Positions 5,656 through 61,361 of a stretch of 64,000 bases of DNA are shown here, piece by piece. Origin of the DNA: Theocolax elegans. Its lineage: Eukaryota > Arthropoda > Insecta > Hymenoptera > Cerocephalidae. The translations under genes and the position numbers were made by a program. Under the pieces are notes generated by a model that ran no database searches, was not told the origin of the DNA, and saw only the letters and a program-made list of their open reading frames with translations. The number at the start of each line of letters is the position of its first letter. The first letter of the stretch is position 1. The stretch spans positions 42,550,307 through 42,614,306 of the forward strand of contig CM047426.1 in the NCBI GenBank assembly GCA_026168455.1, in the 5' to 3' direction.

Positions 5656-5690
5656 GACGTTTCGTTGGCTTGGTCTGCCAACCTCTTCAG
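5656..5690 (-). ncRNA. Possible hammerhead ribozyme core remnant of the Penelope element
   Basis: On the minus strand CTGAAGA is followed by a hairpin GTTGGC/GCCAAC and then GAAAC, the order of a hammerhead core and stem II. Penelope-like elements are known to carry hammerhead motifs. I could not pair a convincing stem I or stem III with a cleavage triplet, and stem II needs one bulged G. A fragment or a degenerate copy is the best reading. Confidence 0.35.
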
Positions 5691-5897: not shown

Positions 5898-8027
5898 TCA
5901 GGCATTTAATTTTCTGAGAACTGGGAAATAAGAGCTATTTAAAAATCTAATATCGTCTTTCTTATTAATATTATTAACATCAAGTTTAATGTGTAACATT
6001 TCCGAAATAAGACGCTTTTTATAATTGATCTCCCTATCGACAATTTTTACACCATCCCAATCAAATTCATGTTTATTTAAAAACATATGTTGATTAATAA
6101 CTGAATCAGTATTGTTATTCTTTTTGTGTTCATTAATCCTCGTTTTTAGTAAACGTTTAGTTTCACCAACGTAAGATGCAGGACAGTCTTTACAATTTAA
6201 TTTATAAACAACATTCATCTGTTCAAACTTTTTTGTACCATCTTTACCCAGTTTAATAATAGAATTCAAACTTTTTTGAACTAATGGTAGAGTTTGAATA
6301 TTAACAGACCTTAATATGCGAGATAATTTATCAAAATTCTGAGAAAAAGGTAATGGTAAATAGGCAAGACGTTTAATTCTGGAAGTAGATTGAATATTTT
6401 TTTTTAATTTTAACTTATTTAGACGGAAGTGAATATTTTGTTTAATAAATTTGATATTGTAGTCATTGTCGATAAGTAGATTTTTTACAATATTTAAATT
6501 AGTTGTATGATATCGTACATCTGATAATAAAAAAGCTCTGTCTACTAAATTATAAATAACATTCTTTTTTTGTTGAGTTGGATGATTTGAAAAATAATTA
6601 ATCAATCGACCAGAAGCTATGGGTTTTTGGTACCAATTTGTTATAATACGATCATTTTCTCTAATTAAGGTAATGTCAAAAAAATTGATTTTTTGGTTTA
6701 TTTCTAATTATGAAGTAAATTGTAAATTTTTATTATATGAATTAAAAATATTTATAACTAAATTTACATGTTCTTTCTTAACACACAAGATAGTATCATC
6801 AACGTATCTAAAATAAAAAAGTGGTTTACAATTATGTTCGTTCAATAATTTATTTAAGCAATCATTTTCCAAATCATCCATTACAATATCAGCAAATAAC
6901 GGAGAAATCGGAGAACCCATGGGAGTACCATGAATTTGTTGATAATAGATATTGTTAAAAACAAAATATGTATTATTGTAAAGAAATTTCGTACATACTA
7001 AGATCTCATTGAACGGAATGCGACATTTATTATTAATAGAAGAAAAACGTCTTTCTAGACTATCTAATACTAAATTGCAAGGGATGTTAGTAAAAAGTGA
7101 AACAACATCCAATGAAAGTAAAACATGATCATTGTCTAAAATAACATCCTTTAATTTTTCTTTCAACTGAAAACTATTGTTAATGTGAGATTTCGGTAAT
7201 TTAATAGCTGTTTTTAATTCATTGTAAATTATTTTAGCAAGAAAATGTGTAGGGCTATTAACTAAAGAAATGATAGGTCTTAACGGGTTATCAATCTTAT
7301 GGATTTTTGGTAAACCATAACCTTTCGCTAAACAAGTATTAGAACAAGTGAGTGCATTAGTGTGAAATTTGTGTTGTAAAAATTCATGATTATTTAAATG
7401 TTTCAAAATTTTAGAAGTAGAAGATTGTAAGTTTTTTAATGGATTCTTAGAAATACACCTATAGACAGTATTATCCGAAAAAATGTTAGTCATTTTTGTA
7501 ACATAATCGGATTTGTACATACAAACTGTTTTGTTACCTTTATCCGAAGTAGTAAAAAATATGTTTGGATTGTTATTTAAAAAAATTTTTGTAGAATTAA
7601 TTTTATTGATAAGTACTTTTTCTTTACTATCTAAATGAGTTTTTGTTTTTATGGTTAAATTGATGTTATTTATCACTTGTTCTCTAATATTTGAACTAAC
7701 AACTTTACTGATATCTAAAGTTTGCAAACAATTTTCCGTGCTTTTAATGATATCAATAACTATTGGATTCGATAAATTCGATTTAAGACTAAAATTCGGA
7801 CCAAGAGTAACAATGTCTTTAACTTCATTAGGAATATCTATTTTTGTTAAATTTATTAACCAGCTGTTATTATCTGACTTAGTCACCATTGTATTTAATG
7901 ATTTAATTTTTAAATCCTTTAAGTGTTCAAATTTTTTCAGTAATAGAGCATCGTGTTTACTTCGTAACTTAAAATATTTCTGAGTAGTCATGTCAAAGAA
8001 AACTTTAAATACATCTTTATCTGTCAC
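5898..8027 (-). pseudogene. Penelope-like RT plus GIY-YIG endonuclease, one nonsense codon
   Basis: A single reading frame of 710 codons is interrupted by one TAA at 6708-6710. The upstream part has RT motifs: GLPKIHK, the SLDVVSLFTNIP motif A, GTPMGSPISPLFADI motif B, and RYVDDT motif C near 6790-6810. The downstream part has a GIY-YIG-type module (VVYKLN ... SYVGETKR ... KTRINEH, about 6120-6215) with the CxxC pair (NCKDC) typical of Penelope endonucleases. Product: nicks target DNA and reverse-transcribes the element. The first codon here is GTG and the frame runs on upstream to the truncation, so this start is arbitrary. Apart from the stop the sequence looks little decayed. Confidence 0.88.
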
Positions 8028-8079: not shown

Positions 8080-8942
8080 TTATTATATATTAGATGAATA
8101 ATTAAAAAAAAATAAAATTATTATTAATTGTTATGTATTGACTGAATAATGGCTGAGAAATCGCCAACATAATTTATTCAAACTTATTTTTTGAAATAAA
8201 TAATTCAAAAATAAACTTATTATTAATTGTTCTAAATTGACTAAATATTGGCTAAGTAATCGCCATCATAATGAAATAATAAACTTATGATTTATTGTTA
8301 TGAATTGACTAATTATGAGTTGTTACGAAATGATTAAATATTGGCTAAGAAATCGCCAACATAATTAAATAATTAAAAAATAAACTTATTATTAATTGTT
8401 ATAAATTGACTGAATATGAGTTGTTTCGAAATGATTAAATATTGGCTGAGAAATCGCCATCATGATTTATTTAAACTTATTATATATTAGATGAATAATT
8501 AAAAAAAAATAAACTTATTATTAATTGTTATGTATTGACTGAATATTGGCTGAGAAATCGCCAACATAATTTATTCAAACTTATTTTTAGATATAAATAA
8601 TTCAAAAATAAACTTATTATTAATTGTTCTAAATTGACTAAATATTGGCTAAGTAATCGCCATCATAATGAAATAATAAACTTATGATTTATTGTTATGA
8701 ATTGACGAATTATGAGTTGTTACGAAATGATTAAATATTGGCTAAGAAATCGCCAACATAATTAAATAATTAAAAAATAAACTTATTATTAATTGTTATA
8801 AATTGACTAATTATGAGTTGTTACGAAATGATTAAATATCGGCTGAGAAATCGCCATCATAATTAAATAATTAAAAAATGAACTTATTATTAATTAGTTT
8901 ATTATTAATTAGAGACATAACAATATTGTATATTATATATAT
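8080..8942. repeat. Satellite array, block 4
   Basis: Satellite units continue from the right target duplication of the Penelope-like element to the left edge of the Gypsy insertion. The last about 60 bp (TATTGTATATTATATATAT) are diverged. The final ATAT (8939-8942) is the Gypsy target duplication. Confidence 0.85.
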
Positions 8943-50750: not shown

Positions 50751-50789
50751 TGTGACATGAGACTTTTAAGTGCTGAATAAAAAATGAAG

Positions 50790-50864
50790 CGGGCGTCGGG
50801 TCTTGAACCCGAGCCCCTTCGGATCCGAAGGCGTTCACGCTAACCACTGCGCTACGCGCGCACT
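50790..50864 (-). tRNA. tRNA-Arg(UCG)-like sequence, probably a SINE/TRIM promoter
   Basis: The minus strand has an A box TAGCGCAGTGG (50844-50854), a B box GGTTCAAGACC (50799-50809), acceptor strands GCGCGCG/CGCCCGC pairing with one mismatch, and the anticodon loop CTTCGGA as in tRNA-Arg with anticodon TCG. The 5' anticodon-stem strand is mutated and does not pair, so a functional tRNA is unlikely. It lies about 40 bp inside a TGTGACATGAG terminus with AATAAAAAA between, the layout of the short LTR at 3632. Confidence 0.5.
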
Positions 50865-54834: not shown

Positions 54835-57110
54835 ACATCCCAAAATAATGTTCAAGCAAGTAACTTACACTTCATCAATGAATTTCAACATTTGCGAGGT
54901 TATCTTATTTTTATTTACTTTGCACAAGCGGTCTTCAATTTTTACTAGTGATATTTTTGGATCGCTCATGCATACTGCTCGCTTGAATACGTCAAATAGG
55001 GAATACTTCCTACTATTTTGCCTAACGTGTATCATCATATTCCTTCTATAATATTTATGGGATGATTCAAGTGCATCTTCTGCATAGTAGGCAATCGGTA
55101 AGGGAAAGTTACTTGATATCTCACAACCATGCTGAAGGAATTAATGCATTGTTGGATTCATGCGCGCCCAAGGATATAATTCATAATGCATGGCATACGT
55201 CTTCCAACAAAGTTCTTCGGTTTCGCGCAATTTTAATTTTCTTTTGCATTTAAATAATTGAAGCAATAGAGTTATGTTCGATACGAATTTTTCACTTAAT
55301 CCTAAACCCATAGCAAATTTCTCCGGACTGCGAAAACATTTTCGTGCTAAATTTCCGGTATTCGTGGTCCCATGGTCTTGTAAAACTTGATCCACTCTTA
55401 CACCAAAAGCATTAAAATTTTTTTTTGCTGAAGTAATTTTTGTTTATTAAATTTTTCTAAGAATATTATAGCAGTTTTCCAAATGTAATTTAGCATTATC
55501 TCTGATAATTATGATTCAATGTGGTTGTACTTTGATAATTGTTAGAAAAGCTATTTTAAGAAAAATAGTTAAATTAAATATTTTTAAAAACGTGCATTAA
55601 AATAAATTCTAGTTACTTCTTATGTGCTAAGGACAATAATTATAGAGATTAATCTGAAATGAAAATAAAATTACCTTTTCGTGACTAAATAACTCCCACT
55701 CCTTAATCGTTAATTTATAGCTTAAATGAAGAAGCTGTTCAAAACTTTTTATCTCAACATTCAATAACCCTAATCCAAACTGTAAAGTTTATTCTACAGG
55801 AGTAAAGGGATCTCACAAATTAAACATGTGAGTTGTTTTTAAGCAGATAGGACATCTTGAAGTTGCTCTATTCCCAGTGATTATATTGACACATTTTCCG
55901 TCAAACATAGTTCTAGAAACTTTAAAATTTACAGTAACTATTTTGCCGTTTGACATGAAAAATGAGTGTGGTACTAGCAAATTTATTTCTTCAGATAATC
56001 GTTTAAATTCTCTCATAACTGTTTCCTTATTTTCCTTCTCTAAGGCAATTCGCAACAGTCGGCAGAACCGAACACTTTGCGGCGTTGGATTTATCCAGCT
56101 ACATTCTTCGGATGGACTTAACTCACGATTATAGTAATGTTATCATTATTTTATTGTAGTAAAATTACTACTTTATTACTACATTATTAGTTTTTCAACA
56201 TTCATCTTTAAATCTTAATGTTAAACACGTAAAAAATAAAATAAACATAGTTTACAGAATAAGAATTGTAATTTAGATATATATATTAATTGATTTTAAT
56301 CAGAATGTAATGCATTAATTATGTACATTGGCTAGTTAACAAGATTTCCATACTTTTAAGTACTGTCTCCTAATTATGATTAGTTGTATAGTAATTACAT
56401 AATTAGTGAGTTCATTTGCAGCATAGGTTAATCAACTAAAAATAGGTTTTAAAATCAATACATGTAGTTTGATTCGACACGTAACAATTTAAAAAATGTT
56501 ATATCCATCTAGTTGATTTTAATTAAGATTTGCAGACATTAGATTATAATTAAGTTTTCAAAAACCAAACAATTAAGGTTCATAAAAGTACAGAATTGTT
56601 GCTAAAAGCAAAGTGGTTTCAGAGGGCAGTAATTGAAATCATTCTCCTAGTTAAAAATAAGAGTCAATGAAATTATTTCAAATTTTGTTATCTTACACGC
56701 AATATTTATTGCTCTATAATTAAGTCAAATTAATGCAAGATTAGGCATTTTAATTAAATTAGCAGTTTACAGTAAATGTATGATAAATGTTCTTCAACAT
56801 TAATCTTACCTTAACTTAATTAGTAAAATACTCGTTACAATCAAAAATTGCTGTGCATCAAAATTATCATTTTCCGGGCTTTCACATTTTTGATCAGAAT
56901 TTGTATGCCTGGATGAGCTGTCGAAGCCTGAAGTATTGTATAAATCAGTATTGTTTAAAATGTCTTCACTCCAATCAAGTGTGACAGCCTCACACAACCT
57001 CTCTACCGTTTTATTCAACATATTTTGAAGCGTAACTTTAACCTCTACTTCTGTTGCAAACACATTTGATGGAATGCACTTTCCCACCTCACATCTGGTT
57101 GGTAAAACAA
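54835..57110 (-). pseudogene. RAG1/Transib-like transposase relic with introns
   Basis: Minus-strand fragments follow the order of a RAG1-core-like transposase. 57,090-56,811 has VTLQNMLNKTVERL and GFDSSSRH. 56,130-55,676 has WINPTPQSVRFCR, KVSRTMFDGKCVNI and CPIC, then FEQLLHLSYKLTIKEW. 55,427-54,835 has HGTTNTGNLARK, ELYPWARMNPTMHK and AEDALESSHKYYRR. A donor GTAAT (55,674) and an acceptor TTACTTCAG (55,428) bound a 247-bp intron; a donor AGGTAAGA near 56,809 suggests another. Stops at 55,813-55,815 and 55,789-55,791 are in frame. The AED segment aligns with the catalytic Glu region of RAG1 from memory. Non-functional DDE transposase or a decayed domesticated gene. Confidence 0.6.
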
Positions 57111-57390
57111 ATTATTTTTTAGGTTTAAAAATATTATAAAAAATGAAATAAAAGTGGTGTTTTATACTCCAATAACCCAAACAAACTGCATCCCAGAAAA
57201 CTAAATGTAAAATAGCTTTGAGAACAAATATCTCGAAATCTCGTTAGACTACCAGATTTCAAGCAACAAAAGAATTCATTTAAACAATAAATTAGAAAAT
57301 TATTTGTTATAAATCCAGGTGACAAACGCATCCACCTTTATGGATACTATTTAAATCGATTAAAAGATATATACAATATGTATCTGTCAT

Positions 57391-57459
57391 TTGTATCTAG
57401 AGACGAGATGCCTGGACTCTACTGATGAGCCCACCAGGCATACTCAGGGCGAAATACAA
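57391..57459 (+). ncRNA. Hammerhead ribozyme, open stem III (type III), kissing loops
   Basis: All core positions are present: CTGATGA (57422-57428) and GAA (57451-57453). Stem III, 6 bp: 57391-57396 with 57454-57459 (TTGTAT/ATACAA). The cleavage triplet is AUC, with the cut after C57397. Stem I, 5 bp: 57398-57402 with 57417-57421 (TAGAG/CTCTA). Stem II, 4 bp: 57429-57432 with 57447-57450 (GCCC/GGGC). Loop I contains ATGCCTGG (57408-57415), exactly complementary to CCAGGCAT in loop II (57434-57441); a further GAG/CTC pair extends it across one bulged A. Expected activity is self-cleavage of a plus-strand transcript. It lies between the transposase relic and the large palindrome; which element carries it is unknown. 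Confidence 0.88.
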
Positions 57460-58060
57460 TTTTTTTTCCGTCTTATTAACTTTTAATTAATTTTATACTA
57501 CAATCAATTAAATTTTATATTTTTGTTGACCTAGCTTGTCTTAGTCTTTTTCTAACACTCATCCTGTGAGGTTTTTAAAGTGGCTGGTATTAATACAGTC
57601 CGCCTTACTTGAGTTGTGAGGAATATTTCTTTGGCTTGTAAAGATCAATAAATTCATTTCCCGCGTAAAAAAATTTAAGCTTATATGAAGTTTGTATAAA
57701 CTTTACGTTTGTCTAAACTTAATATGACGTTGGCTAGCAGGACTGAGCCGAACTTGGTAAATATTGATTACACATTTGTAGAAAGTTTATATCAACATAA
57801 AATAATGTCCTGGGTAAGTTTAAAAATAGTTTTTTTGATCGTACAACATTTGAATTAATAAAAAAATTAAAAAAAATAAATTCTGGACCCAAGATTCGAA
57901 CCTATAATTAAAGTTTATATGAACTTTATATAAACTTTAGATTTGGCTAAACTTGATATGGGGTTGGCCAACGAGACTGAGCCGAATTGGTGTAACTCAC
58001 TGTTCAAGTGTGGCGAAAGTGTATCAAAAGTTCATCAGAATTTGATATAAAGTTTTTTTA

Positions 58061-58693
58061 AAACGCCGTGCGCGAAGATCGATTTTGCAAGCATCTATAG
58101 CGTGTGCGAAGAGCCCAATATACACACTGTACTGTAGCGGGTGCGAAGAACGTTACAGAATGTGCGAAGAACGTAGCGTGTACAAAAAATTCCAAAGTGT
58201 TTTGGTGGTTTTCGTAGAATTCGCTTGTATATTCATGCTGTATCGATAGACCCGCCCCTCAAACCAATCAACTGTTATGCAACTAATTCTCCCTCCCACT
58301 TATATCTTTTTTGTATTTTCCGCGCTGATAGGAAAGCATACTGTCGTTGTGTACATAAAAATTGAAGACACAGTTTCTTGTTAACATTACATAATAACGT
58401 GCTATTTATATGGATACCGATACTGACTCAGATATATCTGATTATGGATTAAAATTATTAAAATTAAAATTATGAAAATTAATTAATTAATTAAAATTAT
58501 TTGGTTCTGCGTTTATATTTATTTTTCTACTTAATCGACCTTCGCGACATTTGTTTTAAAAAATAGTATATGCAACACGTGTGCGAAAGTGATCTCGTAC
58601 TTGCGTGAATTTGACGCCCTCGCTACGCTCGGGTGTCAAATTCCCACGCGTGCGAGAATCACGTTCTTCGCACACTAGTTGCATAATGTACTA
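58061..58693. mobile_element. Insertion in left palindrome arm, TTA flanks
   Basis: 633 bp absent from the other arm, flanked by TTA (58058-58060 and 58694-58696). GTGCGCGAAGATCG near the left end resembles the complement of CGTTCTTCGCACAC near the right end. Includes a short frame beginning MDTDTDSDISDYG at 58,411, too short to call. GTGCGAAGAACG recurs several times. Confidence 0.6.
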
Positions 58694-59847
58694 TTATATG
58701 GTTTTGTTACAATTACTGACAAATAAAATAAAGTTTATACTAAGTTTAGCCGAACTCAATATCAACGTGATATCAAGTTCAATTATATAAAGTAATATAA
58801 TGTTGATATCAACATACCCAAAGAAAAATTTCAAAAATCTTCTTTAACTGACATCATTAAGTATACATCGGTTAGAAAAATGGATATTTGAGATGTAACC
58901 AAAAAATTCGAACCTGCCACTGAAAAGTGTTGTCCATTTCGTTAGTCTTGAAGACATAACCTGAAAGAAGAAAATTAAAAAAACCACAAAGTATCTATGT
59001 TTACATATTAGAATATTAATTAAAACATAATTAAGAACGTAAAATTTTCAATTTAAATAGAAAAAACTTATCTGATGCGGCGGTCCAAAATGAATCTTCG
59101 TGTGTCGTATTTTCTATCCTGACATCGTTGTCCGGATTACGCCTTAATATGTACATCGATCGCGCAACAATGCTCTGTCAACTCGTTTACACACTAAACG
59201 ACGACTCACGGTTATTACAATTACACAAACAATACAATTTATCAATCGTTCAGATTCGCAAAATATAACCTGGTCCGCTAATCCTTTTCATGCTGCTCTC
59301 GCGAGTGAACTGACGCTAGGGTTAGTTGCCAAAACAACATTGTTTTGTTTTTTTTTCATCCGCTAATTTATCGATATCTAACCGATTCGTCAGTACCGTT
59401 GCGAATGCGGCGCGAGAAGGACCAGCAGATCAGGTTATTTTTTCATATCTGACAGTTTAATAACTGCAGTTGTAATAATCGTGAGTCGCCGTTTAGTATG
59501 TAAACGAGTTGACAGAGCATCGTTGCCCGATCGGTGTACATATTAAGGCGTAATCTGGACAACGATGTCAGAATAGAAAATACGACACACGAAGATTCAT
59601 TTTGGACCGCTGCATCAAATAAGTTTTTTCTATTTAAATTGAAAATTTTACGTTCTTAATTATGTTTTAATTAATATTCTAATATGTAAACATAGATACT
59701 TTGTGGTTTTTTTAATTTTCTTCTTTCAGGTTATGTCTTCAAGACTAACGAAATGGACAACACTTTTCAGTGGCAGGTTCGAATTTTTTGGTTACATCTC
59801 AAATATCCATTTTTCTAACCGATGTATACTTAATGATGTCAGTTAAT

Positions 59848-60143
59848 AGTAGTTTTCGTGCCATGGCCGTAAAGTAGAACTTTTTCAGCCGAGTGTGGAA
59901 AGTAACGTCCAAGGACCTGCGAAGCAGGTCCGAGGATCGCTACTTTACATGCGAGGCTGAAAAAGTTTACGGCCGAGGCGCGAACATTACTTTTCGAGAG
60001 AGTATCCGTAAAGTTCTTAGCAATTTCAATACAATATTTTTTTTGTACACGTGTCCGTAAAGACTGTACACGTGTTCGTAAAGTCGCACTTTACGTCCGC
60101 AAAACAGTACGTAAAGTCGTACTTTACGGATACTCTATCGAAA
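59848..60143. mobile_element. Insertion in right palindrome arm, CGTAAAGT-rich
   Basis: About 296 bp without counterpart in the left arm. CCGTAAAGT and its complement ACTTTACGG recur at least eight times, with one tight hairpin CGTAAAGTCGTACTTTACGG near 60,110. The frame at 60051 is a by-product. Confidence 0.55.
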
Positions 60144-60246
60144 AGAAGATTTTTTAAATTTTTCTTTGGGTATGTTGATATCAACATTATATTACTTTAT
60201 ATACTTGAACTTGATATCACGTTGATATTGAGTTCGGCTAAACTTA

Positions 60247-60915
60247 CAAGGAGAGTATCCTAGGTCCGGATCACGGATCTTGTCCTAACTCTAGGATAAG
60301 TTTTGTTATATAAAAATATGAAGAAAGCCAGAGTTATAGACCCTAACGCTCGATATTACGGAAGTTATACACTGTTAATGCTATTTTAAAAAAAAAAAGA
60401 ACCTTTACTTCAAATGCTTATAACTTTTAAACAATAAACTATCAGCCCTCAAATATAAATTCATTTAAAAGCTGAGATAAAATAGATACAGTTTAAAAAA
60501 AAAATAAGCTCAAATCCGTTGCAATGGAGCAAAGTTATAGCAGAAATAAAAATTTGTAGAAATTTTGACGAAAATTAAGCACTGTGATTTGTTAAGCTAA
60601 ATTTCTACAAATTTTTATTTCTGCTATAACTTTGCTCCATTGCAACGGATTTGAGCTTTTTTTTTTTTAAACTGTATCTATTTTATTTCAGCTTTTAAAT
60701 GAATTTATATTTGAGGGTTGATAGTTTATTGTTTAAAAGATATAAGCATTTGAAGTAAAGGTTCTTTTTTTTTTAAAATAGCATTAACAGTGTATAACTT
60801 CCGTAATATCGAGCGATAGGGTCTATAACTCTGGCTTTCTTCATATTTTTATATAACAAAACTTATCCTAGAGTTAGGACAAGATCCGTGATCCAGACCT
60901 GGGATACTCTCCTTG
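60247..60915. mobile_element. MITE B, long palindrome, 3-bp TSD (TTA)
   Basis: 669 bp, ends CAAGGAGAGTATCC and GGATACTCTCCTTG, arms of about 325 bp that are nearly perfect, centre near 60,580. Flanked by TTA (60244-60246 and 60916-60918). The unoccupied site is preserved in the opposite arm near 58,740, which confirms the boundaries. Same family as MITE A. Confidence 0.88.
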
Positions 60916-61361
60916 TTAGTATAAACTTTATTTTATTTGTCAGTAATTGTAACAAAACCATATAAAAACTTTATATCAAATTCTGATGAACTTTTGATAC
61001 ACTTTCGCCAAACTTGAACAGTCTGTTACACAAATTCGGCTCAGTCTCGTGGGCCAACCCCATATCAAGTTTAGCCAAACCTAAAGTTTATATAAAGTTC
61101 ATATAAACTTTAATTATAGGTTCAAATCTTGGGTCCAGAATTTATTTTTTTTAATTGTTTTATTAATTCAAATTTTGTACGATCAAAAAAACTATTTTTA
61201 AACGTACCCAGGACATTATGTTATGTTGATATAAAATTTCTACAATTGTGTAATCAATATTTACCAAGTTCGGCTCAGTCCTGCTAGCCAACGTCATATG
61301 AAGTTTAGACAAACGTAAAGTTTATACAAACTTCATATAAGCTTAAATTTTTTTACGCGGG

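Follow-up and report, generated by a model that had tools for sequence, protein, structure and literature searches.

A complete type III hammerhead motif was found by direct reading of the sequence on the plus strand at 57391-57459. Positions are those of the window, that is, of the whole 64,000-nucleotide stretch of DNA that was analysed. Stem III is open, and stems I and II are closed by loops of 14 nt each, which is the topology of type III. The parts of the motif are given below, with the RNA form after the slash.

57391-57459, plus strand: type III hammerhead ribozyme, entire motif (sequence reading; RF00008 match)
57391-57396, plus strand: 5' strand of stem III, TTGTAT/UUGUAU, with U16.1 at 57396; pairs with 57454-57459
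57397, plus strand: C17, with the cleavage site 57397/57398 predicted from the hammerhead rule NUH^ (AUC)
57398-57402, plus strand: 5' strand of stem I, TAGAG/UAGAG; pairs with 57417-57421
57403-57416, plus strand: loop I, 14 nt, ACGAGATGCCTGGA, with the octamer AUGCCUGG at 57408-57415 (sequence reading)
57417-57421, plus strand: 3' strand of stem I, CTCTA/CUCUA; pairs with 57398-57402
57422-57428, plus strand: catalytic core CTGATGA/CUGAUGA, C3 to A9 (sequence reading)
57429-57432, plus strand: 5' strand of stem II, GCCC; pairs with 57447-57450
57433-57446, plus strand: loop II, 14 nt, ACCAGGCATACTCA, with the octamer CCAGGCAU at 57434-57441 (sequence reading)
57447-57450, plus strand: 3' strand of stem II, GGGC; pairs with 57429-57432
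57451-57454, plus strand: core G12, A13 and A14 (57451-57453) and A15.1 (57454) (sequence reading)
57454-57459, plus strand: 3' strand of stem III, ATACAA/AUACAA; pairs with 57391-57396

The sequence-only reading had claimed a full core and three helices free of mismatches, with exact complements in loops I and II. Both claims are borne out. Every position of the core CUGANGA...GAA, of the N-U-H site and of the A15.1-U16.1 pair is present, and the stems I, II and III of five, four and six pairs are Watson-Crick throughout (15/15). The octamers AUGCCUGG of loop I (57408-57415) and CCAGGCAU of loop II (57434-57441) are exactly complementary over eight consecutive pairs, where at least four Watson-Crick pairs between loops I and II are taken to mark a pseudoknotted type III hammerhead. 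The proposed extension of the octamers by GAG (57405-57407) and CTC (CUC, 57443-57445) is also present, but it requires that one A of loop II be bulged, and it fits a rival nested hairpin better. The loop I octamer ATGCCTGG has one further plus-strand occurrence in the window, at 56905-56912, within TTTGTATGCCTGGATGAG. Further letters of the latter match the hammerhead in identical order, probably by chance.

The comparison with the Rfam hammerhead models, which had been proposed as a check, gave a divided answer. RF00008 matches 57391-57459 with 34.5 bits (E-value 9.7e-6 for 501 nt and 0.0012 for the whole 64-kb window). It is the sole hammerhead, and the sole ribozyme of any kind, among the 22 Rfam matches in the 64 kb, in a permissive search that covered 4,227 families up to E 5 and kept the best match per clan. 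However, the score is below the curated gathering score of 48.5 bits, and the scan of the window at gathering thresholds reports a tRNA and no hammerhead. This counts against a genuine hammerhead and in favour of a chance resemblance, and a score below threshold is one part of the refuting outcome that the sequence-only reading had named. The shortfall is probably caused by the two 14-nt loops, which are longer than typical, and the gathering score is a listing cut-off rather than a structural defining feature. What is directly observed is the sequence, its potential to pair and the model match.

The explanation we favour, with moderate confidence, is a genuine type III hammerhead that folds through a pseudoknot and apparently stands alone in a part of a hymenopteran genome, probably of a chalcidoid wasp, that is rich in transposons. 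We infer its folding order, activity and origin as follows. Firstly, stem I would fold before the rest. Secondly, loop I would pair with CCAGGCAU (57434-57441), yielding an 8-bp H-type pseudoknot. Finally, stems II and III would close and complete the hammerhead. The loop-loop helix would keep stems I and II side by side, replacing the usual non-Watson-Crick contact, and a plus-strand transcript is predicted to cut itself after C57397. The source would be a mobile or circular-RNA element, of which the copy now stands alone. In geometric terms this order seems feasible: the linkers of the H-type pseudoknot formed by stem I and the 8-bp helix would be 5, 1 and 12 nt long, and stem II could then close via the 12-nt linker.

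However, the minimum-energy nested fold is the octamer hairpin and not the hammerhead, which is a point against this explanation. The hairpin consists of the two octamers together with GAG/CUC (11 bp with a bulge) and has -21.8 kcal/mol, whereas the nested hammerhead fold alone has -9.6 kcal/mol and the 8-bp octamer duplex -12.8 kcal/mol. By these figures the hammerhead with the octamer helix would be close in energy to the hairpin, and the pseudoknot penalty could tip the balance either way; models that leave out pseudoknots are unable to rank these folds. Folding of 57385-57465 gives a z-score of -2.22, and six of 200 shuffled sequences fold equally well.

The same energies underlie a possible, though rather unlikely, alternative, in which the hammerhead is real and the octamers serve mainly as an attenuator: the nested hairpin would form during transcription, most of the RNA would stay uncut, and cleavage would need refolding. 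A precedent is the satellite RNA of barley/cereal yellow dwarf virus RPV, whose hammerhead is attenuated by alternative loop pairing. Indeed, the hairpin is both the minimum-energy fold and the fold predicted for successive partial transcripts, where it forms after loop II has been made and before closure of stem II (-18.8 kcal/mol at 56 nt). Moreover, an 11-bp duplex within the hammerhead would leave linkers of 1-2 nt for a full turn, and thus GAG/CUC should pair only in the hairpin. The pseudoknotted hammerheads of termite and toad deltavirus-like RNAs, as described in PMC7936874, self-cleave in vitro to only 50-60%. On the other hand, the H-type pseudoknot of stem I and the octamer helix is sound in itself and can coexist with the hammerhead, and the ranking by pseudoknot-free models does not apply to it. 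As the octamers pair in both folds, they are common to one active and one inactive fold. We would expect cleavage of the motif to be real yet incomplete.

A chance origin is improbable for the stems and the loop match taken jointly, but not for the bare core. The bare core pattern alone is not special: the window has six matches where 3.3 are expected, and six or more are seen in 14 of 100 shuffles. A first-order Markov sequence of 400 Mb was simulated with the window as its model; one strand of it, containing 48,160 cores, has nine type III-like sites, with core, cleavage site and stems of at least 4/4/4 bp, G-U pairs allowed. One of these nine has stems I, II and III of at least 5, 4 and 6 bp, and the longest loop-loop complement among them is six. 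A smaller simulation of 6.4 Mb contained no such sites. When the loops are permuted, at least eight consecutive pairs arise in 38 of 100,000 trials. The real window has octamer complementarity at equal spacing at 434 of 63,956 positions, so real DNA is more palindromic than the loop permutation suggests. Stems and loop match together would be expected about 0.0006-0.01 times per genome of an assumed 300 Mb, an estimate derived from one simulated site. These figures are strong but not overwhelming evidence for one site chosen in advance. The simulation, the sequence and the Rfam E-value all support the claim of a type III hammerhead with complementary loops.

The same counts bear on the possibility that the motif is a chance look-alike, produced by a small palindrome in AT-rich, repeat-rich DNA and having no catalytic history. 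About 1.5 equally long-stemmed sites are predicted on both strands of an assumed 300-Mb genome (from the one site in 400 Mb), octamer complements so spaced are no rarity in the window, the bare core is at chance level, and the motif is a single copy within the window. The frequent octamer complements and the single copy also count against the explanation we favour. However, the core is right at every position, all stem pairs are Watson-Crick, and the joint expectation given above is low. Thus we consider a look-alike improbable.

BLAST of 56500-58500, a scan for the motif that required a perfect 4-bp stem II, and the Rfam search up to E 5 all failed to show a second copy or tandem partner of the hammerhead in the 64-kb window. 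A looser pattern scan alone gave a second hammerhead-like core on the minus strand at 5660-5690, CTGAAGAG-GTTGGC-AGACCAA-GCCAAC-GAAA, in which stem II has one extra G. It resembles minimal, dimer-acting hammerhead forms. Rfam lists no hammerhead at this site up to E 10. The site lies about 210 bp past the 3' end of the ORF of a Penelope-like element (5898-8027, minus strand), which contains reverse transcriptase (PF00078) and GIY-YIG (PF01541) ORFs and is preceded by AT-rich sequence that by eye appears repeated (approximately 8100-8900). Penelope-like elements are described as carriers of hammerheads (PMC11167929).

The window as a whole is insect-like DNA with several retroelements. Among the best 120 matches of each protein, the best named relatives of a LINE reverse transcriptase are from Trichogramma, Anopheles and Neodiprion, and those of a Gypsy-type polyprotein are mostly from Trichogramma, followed by Copidosoma and ants, with bugs and beetles lower; the identity of the named matches is roughly 40-60% in both cases. 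From these relatives the host is probably a chalcidoid wasp. A tRNA-like match at 50788-50861 on the minus strand (RF00005, 35.2 bits, above the gathering score), where ARAGORN finds no tRNA, is possibly a tRNA pseudogene or a tRNA-derived SINE.

Several candidate carriers were considered. The next ORF upstream of the hammerhead, 56806-57087, is on the opposite strand about 300 bp away. Beyond it, two colinear transposase pieces on the minus strand, 56055-55813 (E 0.0056) and 55395-55141 (E 1.7e-8), match PDB 6pqn, presumably the Transib transposase of Helicoverpa zea. These pieces and the non-coding stretches between them (55141-56055) may be what is left of an element, or else a derived gene with introns. 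As a carrier these Transib-like pieces are doubtful; the hammerhead is located past their 5' side and is encoded by the opposite strand. On the other side, the stretch 57660-58060 recurs inverted at 60961-61361 with a 96% match, and the intervening sequence contains self-inverse stretches at 58835-59856 and 60239-60923. Given its 400-bp terminal inverted repeats (96%), this element of about 3.7 kb (57660-61361) looks like a foldback element. It was rejected as the carrier, since the hammerhead lies some 200 bp outside it. The 14-nt repeats at 57160 and 57491, which differ by one mismatch, were rejected as a target-site duplication, since exact flank repeats of 9-14 nt occur at 52 of 60 random positions. 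A Pol III unit comprising the hammerhead and the T-run from 57460 was also discarded, as no A and B boxes are seen by eye. Finally, the flanking region does not qualify as a highly structured viroid-like RNA, with a z-score of only -2.28 for 57100-57700 (20 shuffles).

That the motif is a piece of an endogenised viroid-like or deltavirus-like circular RNA, as raised for termite and fly hammerheads, is highly improbable: although the published termite genomic copies also stand alone in large contigs, no related sequence being recognised within 2 kb (PMC7936874), none of the four ORFs of at least 80 aa in 50-64 kb looks like a delta antigen by eye, Pfam on three of these four gave nothing above the cut-off, the structure of 57100-57700 is moderate only, and the helix proportions, with a 5-bp stem I ending in a terminal loop and a 4-bp stem II, are unlike those of the deltavirus-like hammerheads.

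Base-paired loops are already known in the hammerhead class. A pseudoknot between stems I and II is predicted in about 40% of hammerhead representatives, all three types included (Perreault 2011, PMC3088659). Among the examples described there, the 6-bp pseudoknot of a type II metagenomic hammerhead was tested by mutation and compensation, and that of the human C10 hammerhead has 5 bp. In these hammerheads, as predicted for the motif at 57391-57459, a base-paired contact of the stem I and stem II sides stabilises the active fold. However, the contacts of the examples considered here are of 4-6 bp, mostly in types I and II, whereas in our motif the contact would be of 8 bp and the type is III.

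According to the summary in PMC7761336, type I motifs occur chiefly in metazoans, and type III motifs chiefly in plants and in circular RNAs infecting plants. Type III hammerheads with loop pseudoknots are described in termite and toad deltavirus-like RNAs, in termite genomes, and in flies, among them Drosophila pseudoobscura (de la Pena 2021, PMC7936874). The genomic insect cases named there are from Drosophila pseudoobscura, Rhagoletis, Musca, Hermetia, Coptotermes and Cryptotermes. They share with our motif the type III topology, the 5-bp first segment of stem I, the Watson-Crick pairing of loops I and II, and the occurrence as isolated insect copies. The termite and toad agents have a long stem I, whose internal loop GCCR pairs with YGGC of loop II above a 6-bp stem II. 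Compared by description, our motif differs in having terminal 14-nt loops that share 8 nt, a 5-bp stem I, a 4-bp stem II and an apparently hymenopteran host; neither the internal GCCR nor the YGGC arrangement is present. The stem II of 4 bp is that of usual type III hammerheads, and the stem I of 5 bp corresponds to the first stem of the insect pseudoknot motifs as given in the same paper. That survey used a descriptor for longer helices, to which our motif would not conform, and found none in hymenopterans.

Plant retrozyme and satellite-RNA type III hammerheads, the typical members of RF00008, are alike in core, 4-bp stem II and open stem III. Unlike our motif, they are described (PMC7936874) as having a 6-bp stem I with a loop of 6-8 nt, a 4-nt loop II and non-Watson-Crick contacts. 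An infectious plant satellite is also cited in that paper, and compared here by its description, among the type III motifs with stable pseudoknots of loops 1 and 2. In the crystal structure 8YDC, as presented in PMC11300833, a pseudoknot of 6 bp, four of them standard, replaces helix II, whereas our motif retains helix II and would have the octamer helix besides. The pDo500 satellite hammerhead of Dolichopoda cave crickets likewise resides in insect nuclear DNA; however, it is a 49-nt motif in tandem satellite repeats of about 500 bp, and no loop-loop base pairing is mentioned in the description in PMC2837043.

The rarity of long loop pairing was also assessed in a sample, rather than a census, of 326 distinct viral and prokaryotic loci from three pattern scans (at least 120, at least 120 and at least 119 stretches). 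The sites were selected by the stem II pattern, and the counts refer to uninterrupted stems only, motifs with interrupted stems being uncounted. None of the 49 type III sites in the 326 loci listed has more than three consecutive loop-loop pairs. When stem III was allowed to be as short as 3 bp, the longest loop complement in the first 120 loci was four. Thus an 8-pair loop match is atypical for this sample, which is a point against the explanation we favour. An exact 25-mer from the motif has no matches in viral contigs.

The sequence-only reading had called a long Watson-Crick loop contact unusual. As a general statement this has to be corrected in view of the predicted pseudoknots, the insect type III cases and the crystal structure of a pseudoknotted hammerhead (PMC3088659, PMC7936874, PMC11300833). 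What stands is the length of 8 bp, against the 4-6 bp described in these sources, and the pairing of terminal loops. The motif is a new example of a known arrangement, extreme in these two respects among those described, and its distinctive features are the 8-bp length, the terminal-loop pairing on short stems and the host, probably a chalcidoid wasp. No hymenopteran type III hammerhead of this form is reported in the searched literature, which covered few subscription papers. One could think of a hymenopteran subtype, in which short stems are clamped by an 8-bp kissing helix of the terminal loops, possibly acting as an on/off switch with the non-cleaving hairpin, but we suggest this only tentatively.

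If the motif is active, it would extend the type III pseudoknot hammerheads to hymenopterans. It would also be a compact case in which one 8-nt complementarity leads either to an active pseudoknot or to an inactive hairpin, a role that could be tested by swaps of the octamers. Finally, it bears on the source of the isolated insect hammerheads, which may be relics of retroelements or of circular-RNA agents.
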